Shown here: piece after piece, positions 1,795-38,514 of the stretch
Layout: each line of letters starts with the position of its first letter
Numbering within the stretch: position 1 is the first letter of the stretch
Source: a virus
Strand: one strand, 5' to 3'
IMG/VR virus record: IMGVR_UViG_3300048597_000667
Location: 1 to 40,152 of that record
DNA length: 40,152 nucleotides
Translations under genes and position numbers: made by a program
The notes under the pieces: generated by a model
What the model saw: only the letters and a program-made list of their open reading frames with translations
The model's database searches: none
What the model was told of the DNA's origin: nothing

Positions 1795-2313
1795 TCAATA
1801 CGCAATGCCATTCGGGCATTCCTCGTCGGGTATCTCGTGCCACCGGATGCACCGGCGGTAGATGTTCTTTCCGTTCACGATATGCAGCCCTTCGGCATGG
1901 ACAGGGGTGCAGATCACCGGCCCGACTGGCTGGCCGTCTTCGCCCTCGTAGAACAGGACAACAATCTCTCCCGGCGCCGGCATGTTCGCCAGATCGTCGT
2001 TGTTTTTGGGGTAGTGCCAGCCGGGGGTGAGCCAGAGCCGCTTACAGATTTCCAGGTGATCCTGCGCAATTAGATGTAACTCTTTATTCATTGCCGCCGA
2101 TTCTTCGGGGGTAAGTTTTGGCAGTCGTGCGAACCCGAATGGATCGCGCTCCCGATTCCAGACTTCTAGTGGCGCTCCAGCCTTGCAATCAGCACACTCC
2201 AAAGCATCAACCTCTTCGTGGTCAATAATCCAGAAGTTAGAATCGAGGCGATTGCTGCCGCAGGAGGGGCAGGGATTCGGCGTAACTATGTATTGAGCGG
2301 CGGTCTCGGTCAT
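1795..2313 (-). CDS. Lar-like zinc-ribbon protein with C-terminal extension
   Basis: A 172-residue protein. The N-terminal 55 residues show CPSCG, then CADC about 25 residues on, followed by a WNRE motif. This is the layout of the Lar restriction-alleviation family (two CxxC pairs and a terminal WN). About 110 more residues follow, including an IRWHEIPDEE segment reminiscent of DUF551-type phage proteins. Lar proteins modulate type I restriction; whether this one does is unknown, since the ribbon alone is widespread. It starts inside the HTH gene's stop (ATGA, 2310-2313). Confidence 0.6.
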   Translation of the reverse strand: MTETAAQYIVTPNPCPSCGSNRLDSNFWIIDHEEVDALECADCKAGAPLEVWNRERDPFGFARLPKLTPEESAAMNKELHLIAQDHLEICKRLWLTPGWHYPKNNDDLANMPAPGEIVVLFYEGEDGQPVGPVICTPVHAEGLHIVNGKNIYRRCIRWHEIPDEECPNGIAY

Positions 2314-2561
2314 TTGGAAATCCCATCTTTTGGTTCTTCGGTTGGTGCTCTTTTTCCAGAAAGTAATTCACCGTTACCTGGCGCGCCGATAGTAGCCAGA
2401 GCAACAACCGCTGACCTGCGGAAATACTTCCGATTGCGGATTCTCACTGCCGGCGCAATGATTCCGTCACGCTCCCAGCGCCAAAGAGTTGTGGGTGTGA
2501 TGCCGCCCAAAAGGCGGCGCGCGTCTGTTGAAGAAATAAGCGGGTCATCGATTATGTCCAT
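2310..2561 (-). CDS. MerR/AlpA-like helix-turn-helix protein
   Basis: An 83-residue DNA-binding protein starting at the ATG at 2561, which has GAGGAA nine bases upstream; an ATG at 2588 would lie inside the upstream gene. Residues 10-50 (SSTDARRLLGGITPTTLWRW, then a KYFRR segment) form a winged HTH of the MerR/excisionase (HTH_17) type. By position in the integrase operon it is a candidate excisionase or transcription regulator, competing for that role with the DUF4224 protein. Confidence 0.75.
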   Translation of the reverse strand: MDIIDDPLISSTDARRLLGGITPTTLWRWERDGIIAPAVRIRNRKYFRRSAVVALATIGAPGNGELLSGKRAPTEEPKDGISK

Positions 2562-2565
2562 GTGG

Positions 2566-3417
2566 TTAGTTCCTCGGTGCGCTCGCAAGCTGCCCGTTTT
2601 TCCTCATTCGTTGTATTGCCAAAGCAGCGCTAATATTTTTCTTTGTAGTAACAAGGCGCGGGTGCGTATCCATTATGGAATCCCGCCATACCTTTGCGGT
2701 GCTATGCGGCAAACCTGGCCAGAAATTATTGTAAATAACGGTGTCGAATCGCTGTTTCCCGGCAAGGCTTCTATAGGATGTAAAGTAAGGATTCGCACGC
2801 TGGTTCATATATTCAAGTACGCTGCCAGCTAACTCCGGCGAAATAGCTTCACCCTCTCTAAAACCTTTTCCGCGCGCGTAGTGATCCGTCAATTCTTCAA
2901 ATAGTGCAGAGTAAAGGATTTGACCCCTGTGTTTTGAAATGTCCGGGGATCTGAGTTTTTGCTCGGCGATCAACTCCATGGCCCCGGCGCCTTCCCGGCC
3001 CCTCAACAGGTTAAAGGCGACCACGGTGTTATCCTTAAAAGCGGGCGAGTACATCAAGGCGCCCAGCATTGTCATCACTTCTTGCGAAAAGCCTGACATC
3101 ATATCCGCGAATACGACACCCACAGGCCTGTCATGCGGCCATGCTGCCAATATGTCCATCAAGTTCCCATGAATTGCGACCTTCCCCTCCGCTCTGATTT
3201 TTTTCACAACAGCCATATCAATATCTACTGCCAATAAGTTATTTGGGTTAAAGCCTTTGCTTACGGCCACCGGCCGATCGCTGTCATCTGACGCGGAAAG
3301 ATACAGCACGAGCGCATCCTTTTTATTTGGGACTCTCTTGGCGATTTCGTTCCAGCAACGCCGACGCCAGTTCCGCTTTTGGCCGGCCGCATAGTAGGTG
3401 TCGTGCTCACGCAACAT
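2566..3417 (-). CDS. Rossmann-like protein of unknown function
   Basis: A 283-residue protein. The ATG at 3417 was chosen because AAGGGA lies seven bases upstream; it overlaps the Avd-like gene's end by 11 bases. Residues about 30-115 alternate beta strands and helices like the first half of a class I methyltransferase: a hydrophobic strand with LYLSASDD, then LLAVDID (an acidic end of strand 2), then VVFADMMSGF. This suggests a nucleotide- or SAM-binding Rossmann fold, but I see no complete catalytic motif. There is no YxDD box or other reverse transcriptase motif. The base composition looks more AT-rich than the neighbours. It directly follows the diversity-generating cassette, so a role there is possible but unproven. 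Confidence 0.6.
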   Translation of the reverse strand: MLREHDTYYAAGQKRNWRRRCWNEIAKRVPNKKDALVLYLSASDDSDRPVAVSKGFNPNNLLAVDIDMAVVKKIRAEGKVAIHGNLMDILAAWPHDRPVGVVFADMMSGFSQEVMTMLGALMYSPAFKDNTVVAFNLLRGREGAGAMELIAEQKLRSPDISKHRGQILYSALFEELTDHYARGKGFREGEAISPELAGSVLEYMNQRANPYFTSYRSLAGKQRFDTVIYNNFWPGLPHSTAKVWRDSIMDTHPRLVTTKKNISAALAIQRMRKNGQLASAPRN

Positions 3418-3844
3418 CGTCATTTCCCTTGCAGTACAGCGTGATTGCATCCAAATAGTCTTGTGGTATCGGCACTACATCTAACCGAATTCCCCTGAAG
3501 TAATCGCCCTCCGCAAACCCGCCGGCGCACCGACCAACCTCTTCGGCATTGCGGATAAGCGACTCGAACTGCGCAAAACTTTTGAATGCTTTGACCAGGC
3601 TGCCCATTCTCAGGCTCAGCTTTAATTCATCGATGGCCCACACCAGCTCCGTGACCCAGTGCGCTTGGCGCGATCTGTCACGCCAGGCGCGGTGGCATAT
3701 CCGCAGTACCTCGGCGGCTTGTGCCCGCATATCACTACCGATTGAATACTTGTGATAGCGCGCGAAGTCCCGAACGGCTGTCTCGATATCGACGAGCAGC
3801 CGCTCGGCTTTCTTCGCGATGTCCGGGAGCTGGTGTGGCTTCAT
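3407..3844 (-). CDS. avd: Avd-like accessory variability determinant
   Basis: A 145-residue helical protein. A central pattern with an FARYHKYSIG segment, a long amphipathic helix, a WAIDELKLSLR helix and a closing EEVGRCAGG motif matches the four-helix-bundle S23/Avd family. In diversity-generating retroelements, Avd is the basic partner that binds reverse transcriptase and template RNA and is needed for mutagenic homing. It lies 25 bases downstream of the second variable-protein gene on the same strand, the usual place for avd. The upstream region lacks a good Shine-Dalgarno sequence. A generic four-helix-bundle protein of the S23 type is the alternative, but the neighbouring variable repeats favour Avd. 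Confidence 0.8.
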   Translation of the reverse strand: MKPHQLPDIAKKAERLLVDIETAVRDFARYHKYSIGSDMRAQAAEVLRICHRAWRDRSRQAHWVTELVWAIDELKLSLRMGSLVKAFKSFAQFESLIRNAEEVGRCAGGFAEGDYFRGIRLDVVPIPQDYLDAITLYCKGNDDVA

Positions 3845-3869
3845 GTAAAAGACTCAGAAAACCAAAAAG

Positions 3870-4226
3870 CTACTGACCGGCGCGCACCGCACGGACGCAC
3901 GCGCGGTCGTAGCGGAGGGAGTCGTAGACAAGGCCGTAGGAGAAGAGCACGACCCAAACCGCCGCTTCGTTCCATGCAGTGGGCGTACTCGACCAGTACC
4001 AATTTGACTCGGTATCGGGAAAGACCTCTACATCAATCGCGGGCGCTTCGCGGGTGTGGTCCGCCAGCGAGAATAGCTCCTTGATGGTCGGCAGGCGCCA
4101 GCCTTCACCAAGCACCTTGAGCGCGTCCTCGTAGGTAACATCTTTGGCAAGCGTTTCCTTGGTCCAGGTGAGGCCGGTTTCATTATCGGTGATGGTGCCG
4201 TCTTCGTTCTGTGTAAATTGGGGCAT
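3870..4226 (-). CDS. DUF1566-type variable protein 2 (DGR target)
   Basis: A 118-residue protein starting at the ATG at 4226, preceded by GAGGAAACGACA; an earlier ATG at 4262 lacks that support. It is one DUF1566/Lcl-type C-type-lectin-like domain: an N-terminal GLTWTKE segment, then GEGWRLPTIKEL, then a WYWSST motif and a C-terminal variable segment closing in ACVRAVRAGQ. This fold is a typical target of diversity-generating retroelements, displaying variable side chains on a binding surface. There is no signal peptide, lipobox or tail-fibre domain. Its last 93 nt pair with the upstream paralogue in a way diagnostic of adenine mutagenesis. The ligand is unknown. Confidence 0.85.
   Translation of the reverse strand: MPQFTQNEDGTITDNETGLTWTKETLAKDVTYEDALKVLGEGWRLPTIKELFSLADHTREAPAIDVEVFPDTESNWYWSSTPTAWNEAAVWVVLFSYGLVYDSLRYDRACVRAVRAGQ
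3872..3964 (-). repeat. DGR variable repeat, copy 2
   Basis: A 93-nt block covering the end of the second variable gene. Compared with 4265-4357 it has 15 differences, all in first or second positions of nine codons whose third base is C or T in both copies (for example CGC/GAC, TCC/GGC, TAC/CTC, CTT/TAT). The first 32 plus-strand nt, which encode the C-terminus and the stop end, are identical and GC-rich, as expected of an initiation-of-mutagenic-homing region. Confidence 0.85.
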
Positions 4227-4262
4227 TGTCGTTTCCTCTGGGTTGGATTCAAAAAGACACAA

Positions 4263-4676
4263 TTACTGACCGGCGCGCACCGCACGGACGCACGCGTCGT
4301 CGTCGCGGCGGCCGCTGCAGACATAGCCGAGGCCGAAGAGCACGACCCAAACCGCCGTGTCATTCCATGCGCACTCGGTGCTGGTCCAATACCAGGTGCT
4401 TTTCGTGTCGGGGTATTTTTCAACGTCAATAGCCGGATTATGACGGGAGAGGTCGAGCAGGGACTCCAGCTCAAACCGGGTTGGCAACCTCCATCCTTCG
4501 CCAAGAGCCTCAACTGCTGCCAAGGCTGCTTTGTAGTCGACCTCCTTCCCGTCCAAAAGCGTGTCGCTCCATTCGAGCTCGTCAACGACTTGCGCGACAG
4601 AGGCCGCCTGCTTTTCCGCTGGCCGGATGGTGATATGGACCGAGTCTCCTACAGAACTGACTTCGATTTGATTCAT
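4263..4676 (-). CDS. DUF1566-type variable protein 1 (DGR target)
   Basis: A 137-residue protein starting at the ATG at 4676, with CGAGGAAACACC just upstream, the same leader type as its paralogue; an ATG at 4715 overlaps the HNH stop but has no such site. Residues 1-45 form a short unrelated leader, then come GEGWRLPTRFELESL, a WYWTST motif and a variable C-terminus ending ACVRAVRAGQ. It is paralogous to the next gene through the DUF1566 domain, but the N-terminal parts have diverged while the C-terminal block is homogenised. It carries no export signal, so it acts in the cytoplasm unless released by lysis. Confidence 0.85.
   Translation of the reverse strand: MNQIEVSSVGDSVHITIRPAEKQAASVAQVVDELEWSDTLLDGKEVDYKAALAAVEALGEGWRLPTRFELESLLDLSRHNPAIDVEKYPDTKSTWYWTSTECAWNDTAVWVVLFGLGYVCSGRRDDDACVRAVRAGQ
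4265..4357 (-). repeat. DGR variable repeat, copy 1
   Basis: Counterpart of 3872-3964. Upstream of the block the two genes differ at silent third positions as ordinary paralogues do; inside it no third position differs at all. That boundary places the 5' limit of recent homing near the codons for the AVWVV segment. Nine codons are inferred to be AAC or AAT in the missing template. Confidence 0.85.
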
Positions 4677-4711
4677 GGTGTTTCCTCGTGAAAGTGAACG
4701 TTGTGGATTGT

Positions 4712-5515
4712 TCATGCGCGAGCCCTCTGGTTCGCCCTGGTCACGAGCTCCGCTGTCAGGATCGCGGCCTTGCGCGCCTCGCCGGTCGTCTCGTTCATTT
4801 TGGTTTTGTTCATGTACTGCAATGCTGCCCGCGGCACGCAGCGCAGGTTTTCGATCTGGACGTTGGCCCTGTCGCCATCGAGGAACACGACTGCATGACC
4901 TTCTGGTATCGGGCCGTTGGCGGCTTCCCAGATCAGGCGGTGCTCAAAAGCCCACCGGCGCGCAGGCATCAGCGAGGGGTCGTCTGTGACTTTGCGCTCC
5001 ATGTAACCATCCTTGCTGATTCGGGTGGATCCGATGGGCACATAATTTCGAGCCAGGTGCGGTGGCCTACCCTTCTTGAATCGCGTCTCTGCAGACCTCC
5101 CGCCCGCCTGCCATCCCTTCACACCCTTGTTTGGCGGCACCTGCCCGGGCTGAAACTGCCCTGTTCGGCCGCATTTGACGCCGTGGTTTTTGGTCAGGGC
5201 GTACAGCTGTTTTCTGGTGTAGCTGGTGCCGAATTCCTTGTTGAGCAAGTGCAACACGTCCGTCAGCGGCATTCTCGGGTATGCGTCCTTGATGAATTCA
5301 AAGTGCGCGGCCGTGAACAAGCGTAACGCGCCCTTCTTCGTGCCAGGCTTTCTGCCAGAGCGAATGCCCTCGCGCCGCAGCGTGCTTTTGATTCCCGTCA
5401 CGGTGCGTTGCTGGCCCCACCTAACGTTGAATGCTGCGGTCAGCTCTGCGCACGACATCGAGGCGCAATGCTCACGCAACCAGGAGACCTGCTTGGCGGT
5501 GTAGGGCTGCCTCAT
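4712..5515 (-). CDS. HNH endonuclease with N-terminal HTH-like region
   Basis: A 267-residue protein. The N-terminal half has two stretches resembling sequence-reading helices (residues about 5-50 and 70-110, the latter with YTRKQLYALTKNHGV). A basic linker precedes a C-terminal HNH domain: a WAFEHRLIWE segment supplies His, followed by IPEGHAVVFLDGD and NLRCV, giving the H-N-N pattern of phage and homing HNH nucleases (HNH_3). It probably cuts DNA, as a free-standing homing endonuclease or for phage purposes. The ATG overlaps the preceding stop (ATGA, 5512-5515). Confidence 0.85.
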   Translation of the reverse strand: MRQPYTAKQVSWLREHCASMSCAELTAAFNVRWGQQRTVTGIKSTLRREGIRSGRKPGTKKGALRLFTAAHFEFIKDAYPRMPLTDVLHLLNKEFGTSYTRKQLYALTKNHGVKCGRTGQFQPGQVPPNKGVKGWQAGGRSAETRFKKGRPPHLARNYVPIGSTRISKDGYMERKVTDDPSLMPARRWAFEHRLIWEAANGPIPEGHAVVFLDGDRANVQIENLRCVPRAALQYMNKTKMNETTGEARKAAILTAELVTRANQRARA

Positions 5516-5745
5516 TTCGTGTCATCGAGGCCGAGCATGGCCGGGGCAGTCCCGCCGCATTCCCTCTGGATACGGAAGGCCTCCAGTGCCAGCTTGGCGT
5601 TGCCGACGATTTCCCGGGCCACGTTGGCCACGGCCTTGCCGCGCTCTATCTCCTGCTTCAGCTCGTCGCCCGCCAGGGATTCATCGCCCAGGCGCTCCAG
5701 CTGTGCGAACAAATGGTCGTTCAGGTCTATAAGTTTGTTCTTCAC
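5512..5745 (-). CDS. Small helical phage protein
   Basis: A 77-residue protein read from a GTG at 5745 that overlaps the previous stop as GTGA; an ATG at 5787 would overlap that gene by 46 bases. The LIDLNDHLFAQLERL start, followed by an acidic helix and a KLALEAFRIQ helix, resembles a conserved phage family seen in many prophages, whose function is unknown to me. It appears wholly alpha-helical, with no membrane segment. Confidence 0.7.
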   Translation of the reverse strand: MKNKLIDLNDHLFAQLERLGDESLAGDELKQEIERGKAVANVAREIVGNAKLALEAFRIQRECGGTAPAMLGLDDTK

Positions 5746-6059
5746 CTGCTGGCCCTCAAATACTGCGACCAGTGCTGGCCAAACCATGATCTGAAAGCCC
5801 TATAGAAATGCTCGACGTCGGCATAGCCGCATTCACTGGCCAGCCGCTTGGCGTTGATGTTAGGGCGCTCTGCAACTGCAGCCTCGACACGGCGTTTCTT
5901 TTCTGCTTTCACCAGCGCTTCCAGCGTGGTGCCTTCCTCGCGCAATCGGCGGCGCAGGGTCGTGCTGCTCATTTGCATGTGCTGCATGACGTCTGCGGTG
6001 TAGTTCCGGCGCAGGGTAGCGAGGGCAAGATAATCAGCGACTCGTTGCGTGGTCGTCAT
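5742..6059 (-). CDS. AraC-like helix-turn-helix protein (left operon)
   Basis: A 105-residue protein. The ATG at 6059 overlaps the stop of a tiny upstream gene (ATGA, 6056-6059). It consists of little more than an AraC-type DNA-binding domain: first HTH with MSSTTLRRRLREEGTTLEAL, linking helix KAEKKRRVEAA, second HTH with AKRLASECGYADVEHFYRAF and a closing WSQY. No ligand-binding domain is present. It probably regulates phage or host transcription. A second protein of the same design lies in the right operon (10383-10745). Confidence 0.8.
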   Translation of the reverse strand: MTTTQRVADYLALATLRRNYTADVMQHMQMSSTTLRRRLREEGTTLEALVKAEKKRRVEAAVAERPNINAKRLASECGYADVEHFYRAFRSWFGQHWSQYLRASR

Positions 6060-13730: not shown

Positions 13731-14104
13731 TCAAGATCGACGGAAAGAAGCCTGCCCGCAAATCCACGCTGGTGACTGGAAAAGGTGTTATTTCGCAGCG
13801 ACTCACAACCGATGACGGCAACAGCACGGGCTACTTCGGCGCGGCCGCGTCTAGCAACTCGGGCGGGCTGACGCGGCGCATGTGGATCAGCGACGCACCA
13901 GGTGGCGAGCCGATTGCGAAGAAAGCCAGCGTGACCGGTGTCGAGCCAAAGCTGTCATTTACGCAGAACAACCCGACGAACAGGTCACAGGTGAAGCTGA
14001 AGCCGAACCGCACCTACTACCTGAACCACAGCCAGCACGAGTTCACGACCAAGCCGACCGCCAGCAGCTCGATGATTCGTAGTTGCTCGATTGGGGGTGC
14101 GTAG
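13727..14104 (+). CDS. Hypothetical beta-rich protein of cargo region
   Basis: A 125-residue protein starting in an ATGA overlap with the hydrolase stop. It is basic at the N-terminus, then has Ser/Thr/Asn-rich strands (STGYFGAAASS, then KLKPNRTYYLNHSQHEFTT). No signal peptide. The KLKPNRTYYLN segment resembles the ends of small phage beta proteins (for example of decorator type), but no family is certain. It joins the two exported proteins in one transcript. Confidence 0.6.
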   Translation: MIKIDGKKPARKSTLVTGKGVISQRLTTDDGNSTGYFGAAASSNSGGLTRRMWISDAPGGEPIAKKASVTGVEPKLSFTQNNPTNRSQVKLKPNRTYYLNHSQHEFTTKPTASSSMIRSCSIGGA

Positions 14105-16083
14105 TGGAAGCCTGGGCGCGGAGTCTGCTGGCGATCATTGTCCTGCTTTTCGTTTTGGTATTTACGGGGGTGGCGCTGGCGCAACCCCCGCAGTTTGTCG
14201 GGTGCGATGAAATCAAGCCCATTCCCCTGGTTTACACGCGCCAGCCGAGACCGTCCGAGCGGATTAACGCGCAGATTGAGGATTCGGCCAACTGGAGCCA
14301 CGTTTCAGATATAGCCAGAATTTACACGTTTACCGAAAGCGATGTAGTGCTGGACACTGGCGGCAAGATCGAAGTCATCCACGACTGTACGGGCGTTTCT
14401 GAAATCTGCGCGGCGCAGGAGGCTAGGGTTAGCCCTGACGGCAAGAGGATCGCCTATTCGGTATCACGCGGCACTCGCCTGATGCCGATTATGTGGTCGG
14501 GTATCAACACGAAGCTGACCGAATTTACTTCAACCACTGCGGAGCTATGGCTGTATGACATACCAACCAAGCAGAAGCGTCGAGTCTCAGCGGGTCACAT
14601 GGATCGCAGTCCCGATTGGTGCGGAGATGATTGTCTGGTATTCACAAGCGATAGGGCTGGGTATTTCCCGCCAAGCGCCCACCACGGTGACGACTACCAA
14701 TACAAGTCCATGCAGGTCTACCGCGCAAAAGTTACCGAGGGAGATATAACCGACATTGAAAATTTGACACCTCACGAACTATTCGCGCTTGCCCCTGTAG
14801 TCCTGCACAACGGGGACATAACGTGGAGCAGTTGGCAGGGCAACTACCCGCGCAAGCCGGGAACGCCGCAGAACTCATGGTCGATATGGGCGATGGACAG
14901 CAACGGCGCTAACGGGCGGGCGATTCTAGGGATGCACGGCGGGCCTACGCTGGAAAATTACGAGTTAATCAAGGGTTGGGTAGACCCTGCGCGGGCAGGG
15001 GAGGGCACGATCACAGTAAAAGGCTTGAGGGGCTGCGGTGAGATTTGGAAGGGCAAGATTGCGTGTGCCAATTACTATCGCGGGAATAAATTGGGTGCCA
15101 ACGGTAATGGAATTTCGTTCCCCTACCGCCGTGATGCCGAGGGCAGTTGGTATCTGAAAAATATCGAAGCGGCTGACATCTACCGGACGACACCCAACGC
15201 CAAGCTACCCGCGACAGGTCGCTTTTTCCCCAGCAAGGCAAAAAACATCACGCCATTCGGCGAGAGCCAGGACGCCAACTCACCCAAGTTTAGCAAGGAA
15301 GGGCGCGCGGCGGGCACAGCAGGATACTTTGCGCCGTGGCTGCACGGCAGCAAATTTTACATCTTCAACTGGAACAGGGGCTACTGTTACGAGGCCTTGC
15401 CTATCAACATGATTACAAGGCAGGCGATGGGCGGGGAGCTTACCTGCTGGAAAACTATTAGGCTGGCGATCAAAGAAGTGGTATCGAATCCGTGGACAGA
15501 CTCCATACCGCTCGCCTGTAGTGATGAGGCGTTTCACTGTTGGGATGCGCGGGCGGTTGTTGAGTACGCCAAGCTGTTCGGACAGGCAGCGCCAGAACGT
15601 AAGCCCACAATTCCTGATGGCAAGTGCTTCCTGCAAGTGGTTGATGTGCGAAAGGCTGAAGTATTGGGATGGCCGGGAGCCACCGAACAGGAGCGGATAA
15701 CGTGGCAGGGCAACGCGCAGCCTGCCTATTCCGAGCTTATTAAGACGGGACAGTTCTGTATCACGCCTGTCAGCCAGTGGACGAAGGTGCCGCTTGCGGG
15801 GAATCCGTTAGCCGCTGTAATGGGGTTCCCGTGGTACGGCGCAAAGCAATGCCAGAAGCCAGAGGAAGACGGCTCGCTACGCATGGAAGTGGAGTGCAAT
15901 CAGGCAATGCTTATGGGCGCTATTGACGTTTACGGCAACACGATAGCCACAGACAACGCCACACACTCACTCAGGCCAGGGGAAACACGCACCTGCCTCG
16001 GCTGTCACGTTCACTCGGAGGAACACGGCGGCGGGCGTGATGCGGCCGCGGAGTTCGCGAAAACAATCGCAGGACAAAAATAA
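14104..16083 (+). CDS. Exported beta-propeller protein with c-type haem motif
   Basis: A 659-residue protein from a GTG at 14104 (sharing a base with the previous TAG). A long signal peptide (LLAIIVLLFVLVFTGVALA) is followed by a large domain with TolB/WD40-like blades: ARVSPDGKRIAYS, AELWLYDIPTKQKRRVS, SPDWCGDDCLVFTSDRAG. Near the end RPGETRTCLGCHVHSEEHGG contains CxxCH (Cys631, Cys634, His635), the covalent haem c site. Propeller plus C-terminal CxxCH recalls proteins of the hydrazine-synthase-alpha-like group found in many non-anammox bacteria. It would act in the periplasm; partner and reaction are unknown. A cytochrome-like protein in a prophage is unusual. Confidence 0.7.
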   Translation: MEAWARSLLAIIVLLFVLVFTGVALAQPPQFVGCDEIKPIPLVYTRQPRPSERINAQIEDSANWSHVSDIARIYTFTESDVVLDTGGKIEVIHDCTGVSEICAAQEARVSPDGKRIAYSVSRGTRLMPIMWSGINTKLTEFTSTTAELWLYDIPTKQKRRVSAGHMDRSPDWCGDDCLVFTSDRAGYFPPSAHHGDDYQYKSMQVYRAKVTEGDITDIENLTPHELFALAPVVLHNGDITWSSWQGNYPRKPGTPQNSWSIWAMDSNGANGRAILGMHGGPTLENYELIKGWVDPARAGEGTITVKGLRGCGEIWKGKIACANYYRGNKLGANGNGISFPYRRDAEGSWYLKNIEAADIYRTTPNAKLPATGRFFPSKAKNITPFGESQDANSPKFSKEGRAAGTAGYFAPWLHGSKFYIFNWNRGYCYEALPINMITRQAMGGELTCWKTIRLAIKEVVSNPWTDSIPLACSDEAFHCWDARAVVEYAKLFGQAAPERKPTIPDGKCFLQVVDVRKAEVLGWPGATEQERITWQGNAQPAYSELIKTGQFCITPVSQWTKVPLAGNPLAAVMGFPWYGAKQCQKPEEDGSLRMEVECNQAMLMGAIDVYGNTIATDNATHSLRPGETRTCLGCHVHSEEHGGGRDAAAEFAKTIAGQK

Positions 16084-38357: not shown

Positions 38358-38467
38358 GGCAGGGCTCCCCATAAACCGCGCCAAGCTATTGATTAATTCG
38401 ACCACTTTCAGCCTTTCTCACCATAAAGAACCAGCGCAACCCGCTGAATTACTTCACATGGGCGGCG

Positions 38468-38514
38468 GGCTACGAACCAGGCGGTCACACGTTCGAATCG
38501 TGTCAGGCGCGCCA
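38468..38514 (+). other. attR: 3' part of tRNA-Arg(ACG)
   Basis: From an anticodon loop CTACGAA (38470-38476) on, the bases match a tRNA-Arg: T arm ACACG-TTCGAAT-CGTGT, acceptor end CAGGCGC, discriminator G and CCA. No 5' half precedes it; instead phage sequence continues up to the loop. This is the sign of integration into a tRNA with the crossover at or 5' of the anticodon loop. The complete tRNA should lie left of position 1. Confidence 0.85.

Follow-up and report, generated by a model that had tools for sequence, protein, structure and literature searches.

Which element wrote the 3' ends of two adjacent phage genes, and what became of it? The question is raised by the window, by which we mean the whole stretch of DNA analyzed here, 40,152 nucleotides of IMG/VR virus record IMGVR_UViG_3300048597_000667. 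We consider it probable that the region 3870–4715 comprises the two diversified targets of a temperate-phage diversity-generating retroelement (DGR), whose core of template repeat (TR) and reverse transcriptase (RT) was recently lost.

Paired variable repeats in two DUF1566-type genes

The target genes, their variable repeats (VRs) and the elements that follow them are located as listed below.

4263–4715, minus strand: VR2 target gene, Lcl_C/DUF1566 (C-type-lectin-like), 150 aa (PF07603, E=1.3e-20)
4266–4352, minus strand: VR2 core, 87 nt, variable codons followed by an invariant IMH-like 3' end, GCGTGCGTCCGTGCGGTGCGCGCCGGTCAG
4241–4262, minus strand: T-tract element after VR2 (TTGTGTCTTTTTGAATC...)
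3870–4262, minus strand: VR1 target gene, Lcl_C/DUF1566, 130 aa from TTG (PF07603, E=4.6e-26)
3873–3959, minus strand: VR1 core, 87 nt
3848–3869, minus strand: T-tract element after VR1 (CTTTTTGGTTTTCTGAG...)

The VR2 target has an alternative start at a second ATG about 39 nt into the gene, and an ATG at codon 13 of the VR1 target is a likelier start than the TTG. The 3' ~90 nt of the two genes differ at 15 bases, all of which occupy codon position 1 or 2. The earlier note, which was made from the sequence alone, had assigned these 15 differences to nine listed codons, and re-comparison reproduced them exactly. It had further stated that the remainder of the block is identical, including silent sites, and that the genes diverge upstream like normal paralogs. 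Both statements hold: third positions are identical at 29/29 sites in the VR core, whereas upstream, where the targets are ordinary and rather diverged paralogs over 71 aligned codons, 24/71 are identical and 47/71 differ (Fisher p = 9e-11). The spread of differences over codon positions in the VR block likewise departs from that found further upstream in both genes (p = 1e-4). Near the edges of the block, the only differences are GCG/ACG at the 5' edge and the stop codons TAG/TAA. CTC at core codon 5 and GAC at codon 18 are common to both VRs, and related TRs mostly carry AAC or AAT at these places; either the TR of this element differed there, or both copies mutated alike.

An AlphaFold model of the VR1 target (pLDDT 86.5) finds its best PDB match in 8q4e, the C-terminal domain of Legionella Lcl, and the predicted structure is a C-type-lectin-like fold, in line with known DGR targets. 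As in such targets, the VR lies inside a C-type-lectin-like C-terminal domain, as indicated by PF07603 and by the model with its PDB match. Both targets are bare domains with no obvious anchor and are situated on the integrase side of the phage; in the related locus L006, the targets flank putative RecT, exonuclease and SSB-like genes, read from their translations. Because of these three features, a tail-fiber role is not evident.

A doubled T-tract, approximately TTTTTG-N2-TTTTTGA, is conserved in the 22 nt that follow the stop codons of VRs in L002, L006, L018–L025, L047, L052, L102 and other related loci. The motif TTTTG occurs at most 22 nt past the stop at 31/47 VR ends, 0/15 TR ends and 46/609 other ORF ends, in counts whose rows are related, so that a p-value would be overstated. 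A hairpin or cruciform resembling that of phage BPP-1 was found downstream of the VRs neither in the window nor in RT-bearing relatives. Since the RT-bearing relatives lack it too, a downstream hairpin is not a defining feature of the window's clade. In BPP-1, the hairpin/cruciform is located where the clade has its T-tract (PMC3240598). The doubled T-tract could be a candidate homing signal of the clade; a literature search found no paper naming the element.

Template repeats of related loci and the absent core

Scans with the window Avd and VR1 gathered more than 40 related loci (denoted by L numbers), most of which are ordered VR (often two adjacent), avd, TR, RT. The two-target order with the Avd-TR-RT architecture is recurrent, for example in L018, L047, L006, L049, L052 and L053. 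The TR of L018 reads GTT TGG GTT GTG AAC TTC AAC AAC GGC AAT GTC AAC AAC AAC CAC CGC AAC AAC AAC GGC TGC GTC CGG GCG GTG CGT GCC GGT GAG. Adenine occupies 15/15 window-variable sites in the TRs of L018, L047, L002 and L102 and 14/15 in that of L006, in which CAC CAC replaces the AAC CAC of the others and renders one site C. A related TR contains 22 adenines in 87 nt, and the coincidence of 15/15 variable sites with them has a hypergeometric p of ~6e-12. The window codon pair CTC/CGC, in which the first C is constant, fits the CAC at that place in most related TRs. Inside the relatives, TR–VR differences number 10–14 at adenine sites and are otherwise confined to the constant 3' ends, GAG in TRs and CAG in VRs, with one extra exception in L002. 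Both window VRs also end in CAG, an IMH-type 3' end unlike the GAG of related TRs.

The VRs thus show the difference pattern that marks a DGR, each departing from its partner only at template adenines, where the adenines are those of related TRs in place of the absent TR of the element itself. The adenine-mutagenesis signature proposed in the earlier note is supported by these five TRs, and the alignment with homologous loci that it had called for places related TR adenines on the window-variable sites. Its predicted template of AAC/AAT codons does exist in homologous loci such as L018, but no copy resides in the phage record.

A complete DGR has a TR in the same genome and a DGR-type RT. No TR was found in the 40152-base record, in which the best third copy of the repeat reaches 51% at invariant sites. 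Likewise, Pfam searches, tblastn with RTs of relatives as queries, and a profile of 45 RTs of the clade, run at full sensitivity with filters off, all detected no RT in the window. Relocation of the RT elsewhere in the window was dropped after the Pfam and profile searches. Since both TR and RT are absent, the two DGR targets stand in the window with no visible retroelement beside them. Exact-pattern scans of genome and viral collections for the VR/TR block of the window gave no match, and INPHARED phages matched neither the phage DNA nor the Avd protein.

The junction inside avd and rival histories

The surroundings of the targets contain the following features.

3407–3844, minus strand: avd (accessory variability determinant), 145 aa (PF22296, E=1.2e-7; phrog_3206 'Avd protein of DGR', 1.1e-14; NF033474, 6e-9)
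3515–3521: breakpoint, the end of DNA homology to complete DGRs (the L102 alignment begins at 3519)
2566–3450, minus strand: orphan ORF, 294 aa, at the position taken by TR and RT in relatives
4712–5515, minus strand: HNH endonuclease (PF13392, 1.7e-17; phrog_1891, 5e-67)
5512–5787, minus strand: small ORF paired with the HNH gene; the same pair adjoins the DGR in L022, L053 and L055
252–1271, minus strand: phage integrase, left end of the prophage (PF00589; phrog_1, 1e-36)
38461–38513, plus strand: tRNA 3' remnant read from the sequence, T-arm ACACG-TTCGAAT-CGTGT plus acceptor strand

The avd gene, which was absent from the earlier note, adjoins the VR1 target directly downstream and is 71–76% identical to avd of L018, L047 and L006. 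It scores below the Pfam and NCBIfam curated cut-offs, and the five RT-bearing relatives tested also fall below the Pfam cut-off. The core of this DGR accessory gene is present and its C-terminal quarter is replaced: codons 1–109 are homologous to Avd of RT-bearing relatives, and the last ~36 codons are foreign. DNA homology stops abruptly inside the gene at about 3519, and G+C drops from about 58% to about 50% past the breakpoint (lower over 2301–3500). The reading frame of avd stays open across the junction and its end overlaps the 294-aa ORF, an arrangement normal for an operon. For this ORF, no family, phage, plasmid or PDB relative was found, and viral contigs and 369 gammaproteobacterial genomes were also without one; matches to PDB sequences were at chance level, and its fold prediction (pLDDT 39) was unusable. 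A Rossmann-type methyltransferase, suggested by its appearance and a sub-threshold match to an rRNA methyltransferase model (E=0.1), is only a guess. A divergent RT was dropped as a candidate, as no RT profile matched the ORF even with filters off. On the other side of the targets, the HNH gene and the small ORF belong to the DGR neighborhood, because in L022, L053 and L055 their homologs closely follow the RT; the HNH homolog is so placed in L059 as well.

Decay of the core is also observed among the relatives. L043, L044 and L060 keep their VRs with a truncated avd and no RT found, and the RT matches of L019, L032, L033 and L046 are truncated. The VR pair of L043 has third-position differences, i.e., drift. 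In L058 (8324–9895, plus strand) and also L057, an in-frame D12-class N6-adenine DNA methyltransferase (PF02086, 7e-9) takes the place of the catalytic middle of the RT; the L058 ORF keeps the TR and the initial ~134 positions of the RT profile, and two VRs are left alongside the TR.

These observations are consistent with the following history. The ancestral operon would have been VR2-VR1-avd-TR-RT, an order seen in relatives and presumed for the past of this phage. The last ~30 codons of each target would have been replaced by mutagenized cDNA from a single TR, with template adenines read as any base, leaving the target DNAs identical outside AAC/AAT-type codons. Recombination at about 3519 would then have fused the first three quarters of avd with unrelated DNA, removing TR and RT and most likely fixing both VRs at their last written state, so that they would now be inactive. 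The loss is likely to be recent, because the two copies still agree at every base other than the adenine sites.

The phage and its host bear on the alternatives. Among the genes of the record are those for an integrase, a terminase, a portal, an HK97-type capsid and tail proteins. The tRNA 3' remnant is the probable right attachment site, judging from its sequence; beyond it lies a host Na/Ca exchanger gene. Neither a complete tRNA nor a left attachment site was found in the record. An unusual cargo gene in the lysis-side region (14083–16083, plus strand) encodes a 666-aa protein that matches PF18582 (E=1e-7; HZS_alpha, the middle domain of hydrazine synthase alpha) and has a CxxCH motif close to its C-terminus. 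The metagenome-assembled genome (MAG) G566 is the nearest host genome found, with 87–90% DNA identity over the host gene flank, and because of this identity the host appears to belong near G566, in the order of the L018 genome.

Two points count against the reading of the VRs as orphans. The missing left attachment site means that the phage genome may extend beyond base 1, and the lack of non-adenine drift would also fit a DGR active from another location. In one alternative, the phage keeps only targets and Avd, and a TR and RT encoded by the host chromosome or by another prophage would continue to rewrite the VRs in trans. Besides the lack of drift, this reading would account for an avd frame intact in its homologous core and for the IMH-like end and T-tract retained at both targets, and remote VRs are known in DGRs (PMC4891356, PMC8144416). 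We nevertheless hold it to be unlikely. G566 contains only an RT of the group II intron type, and none of six genomes of its family, G566 included, has a DGR RT of the clade, an argument that is weak because these are drafts and proxies for the host strain. Among 294 genomes of the order, likewise drafts and weak in this respect, the inferred template is matched best by a single DGR, in G524; the TR of this DGR (L102) is 87% identical to it and differs from the window VRs at 11 non-adenine sites, one being the constant GAG/CAG difference. A host-borne trans-acting core thus receives no support from these genomes, all of which are proxies for the host strain. A satellite DGR, in which an RT-less minimal set of two targets, Avd and homing signals would be kept through diversification in trans by the TR and RT of the host or a co-resident prophage, is quite unlikely; if a trans-acting core were found, DGR targets would behave as satellites.

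It is improbable that this phage has its TR and RT to the left of the recorded sequence, or that the assembly produced a chimeric join at 3519. The missing left attachment site and the linear form of this IMG/VR entry would permit either. However, the RT directly follows avd in almost all relatives (in L020 it lies upstream), the avd frame crosses the junction and overlaps the next ORF in an operon-like manner, and the lower G+C over 2301–3500 suggests imported DNA, not a random mis-join. Gene conversion between the paralogs combined with diversifying selection on nine codons, with no retroelement involved, could homogenize the 3' ends, but it predicts neither adenines at the variable sites in the templates of other genomes, nor the neighboring avd, nor the CAG/GAG end difference. 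Contradicted by the related TRs, it was dropped as highly implausible. Recent loss of the TR-RT core stays the probable history of the two targets.

Significance and comparison with known systems

The window would show one end-state of phage DGRs, in which targets and avd survive and other DNA has replaced template and enzyme, and the breakpoint of core loss can be read to a few bases. As RT loss with retained targets recurs in the clade, surveys anchored on the RT would miss such RT-less targets.

The DGR of Bordetella phage BPP-1 (mtd/VR, avd, TR, brt) shares with the window a C-terminal VR in a C-type-lectin-fold protein, adenine-specific differences, an IMH-type 3' end and an avd adjoining the target. 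In contrast to BPP-1, the window has two targets, neither TR nor RT, a chimeric avd tail, a T-tract element in place of a GC-rich hairpin after the VR, and targets on the integrase side instead of in the tail module. DGRs with DUF1566/Lcl_C targets, including elements with several DUF1566 targets, have been reported in microbiomes and proteobacteria (PMC4159848, PMC6642488); they have the same target fold as the window, in which the core is lost. In Treponema denticola, orphan DGR targets occur in genomes devoid of RT and TR (PMC4891356). These are likewise VR-bearing remnants, whereas the window lies in a phage, carries two targets, retains most of avd and has a mapped breakpoint. Close counterparts, L018 (gammaproteobacterial MAG 8_bin.35) and the IMG/VR loci L047 and L006, share the VR, VR, avd order, but in them both a TR and an RT of full length lie no more than a few hundred bp from avd. 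The VR, avd, the fold of the targets and the presence of several DUF1566 genes among them all have precedents in DGRs, and the window is a truncated DGR, not a new system.
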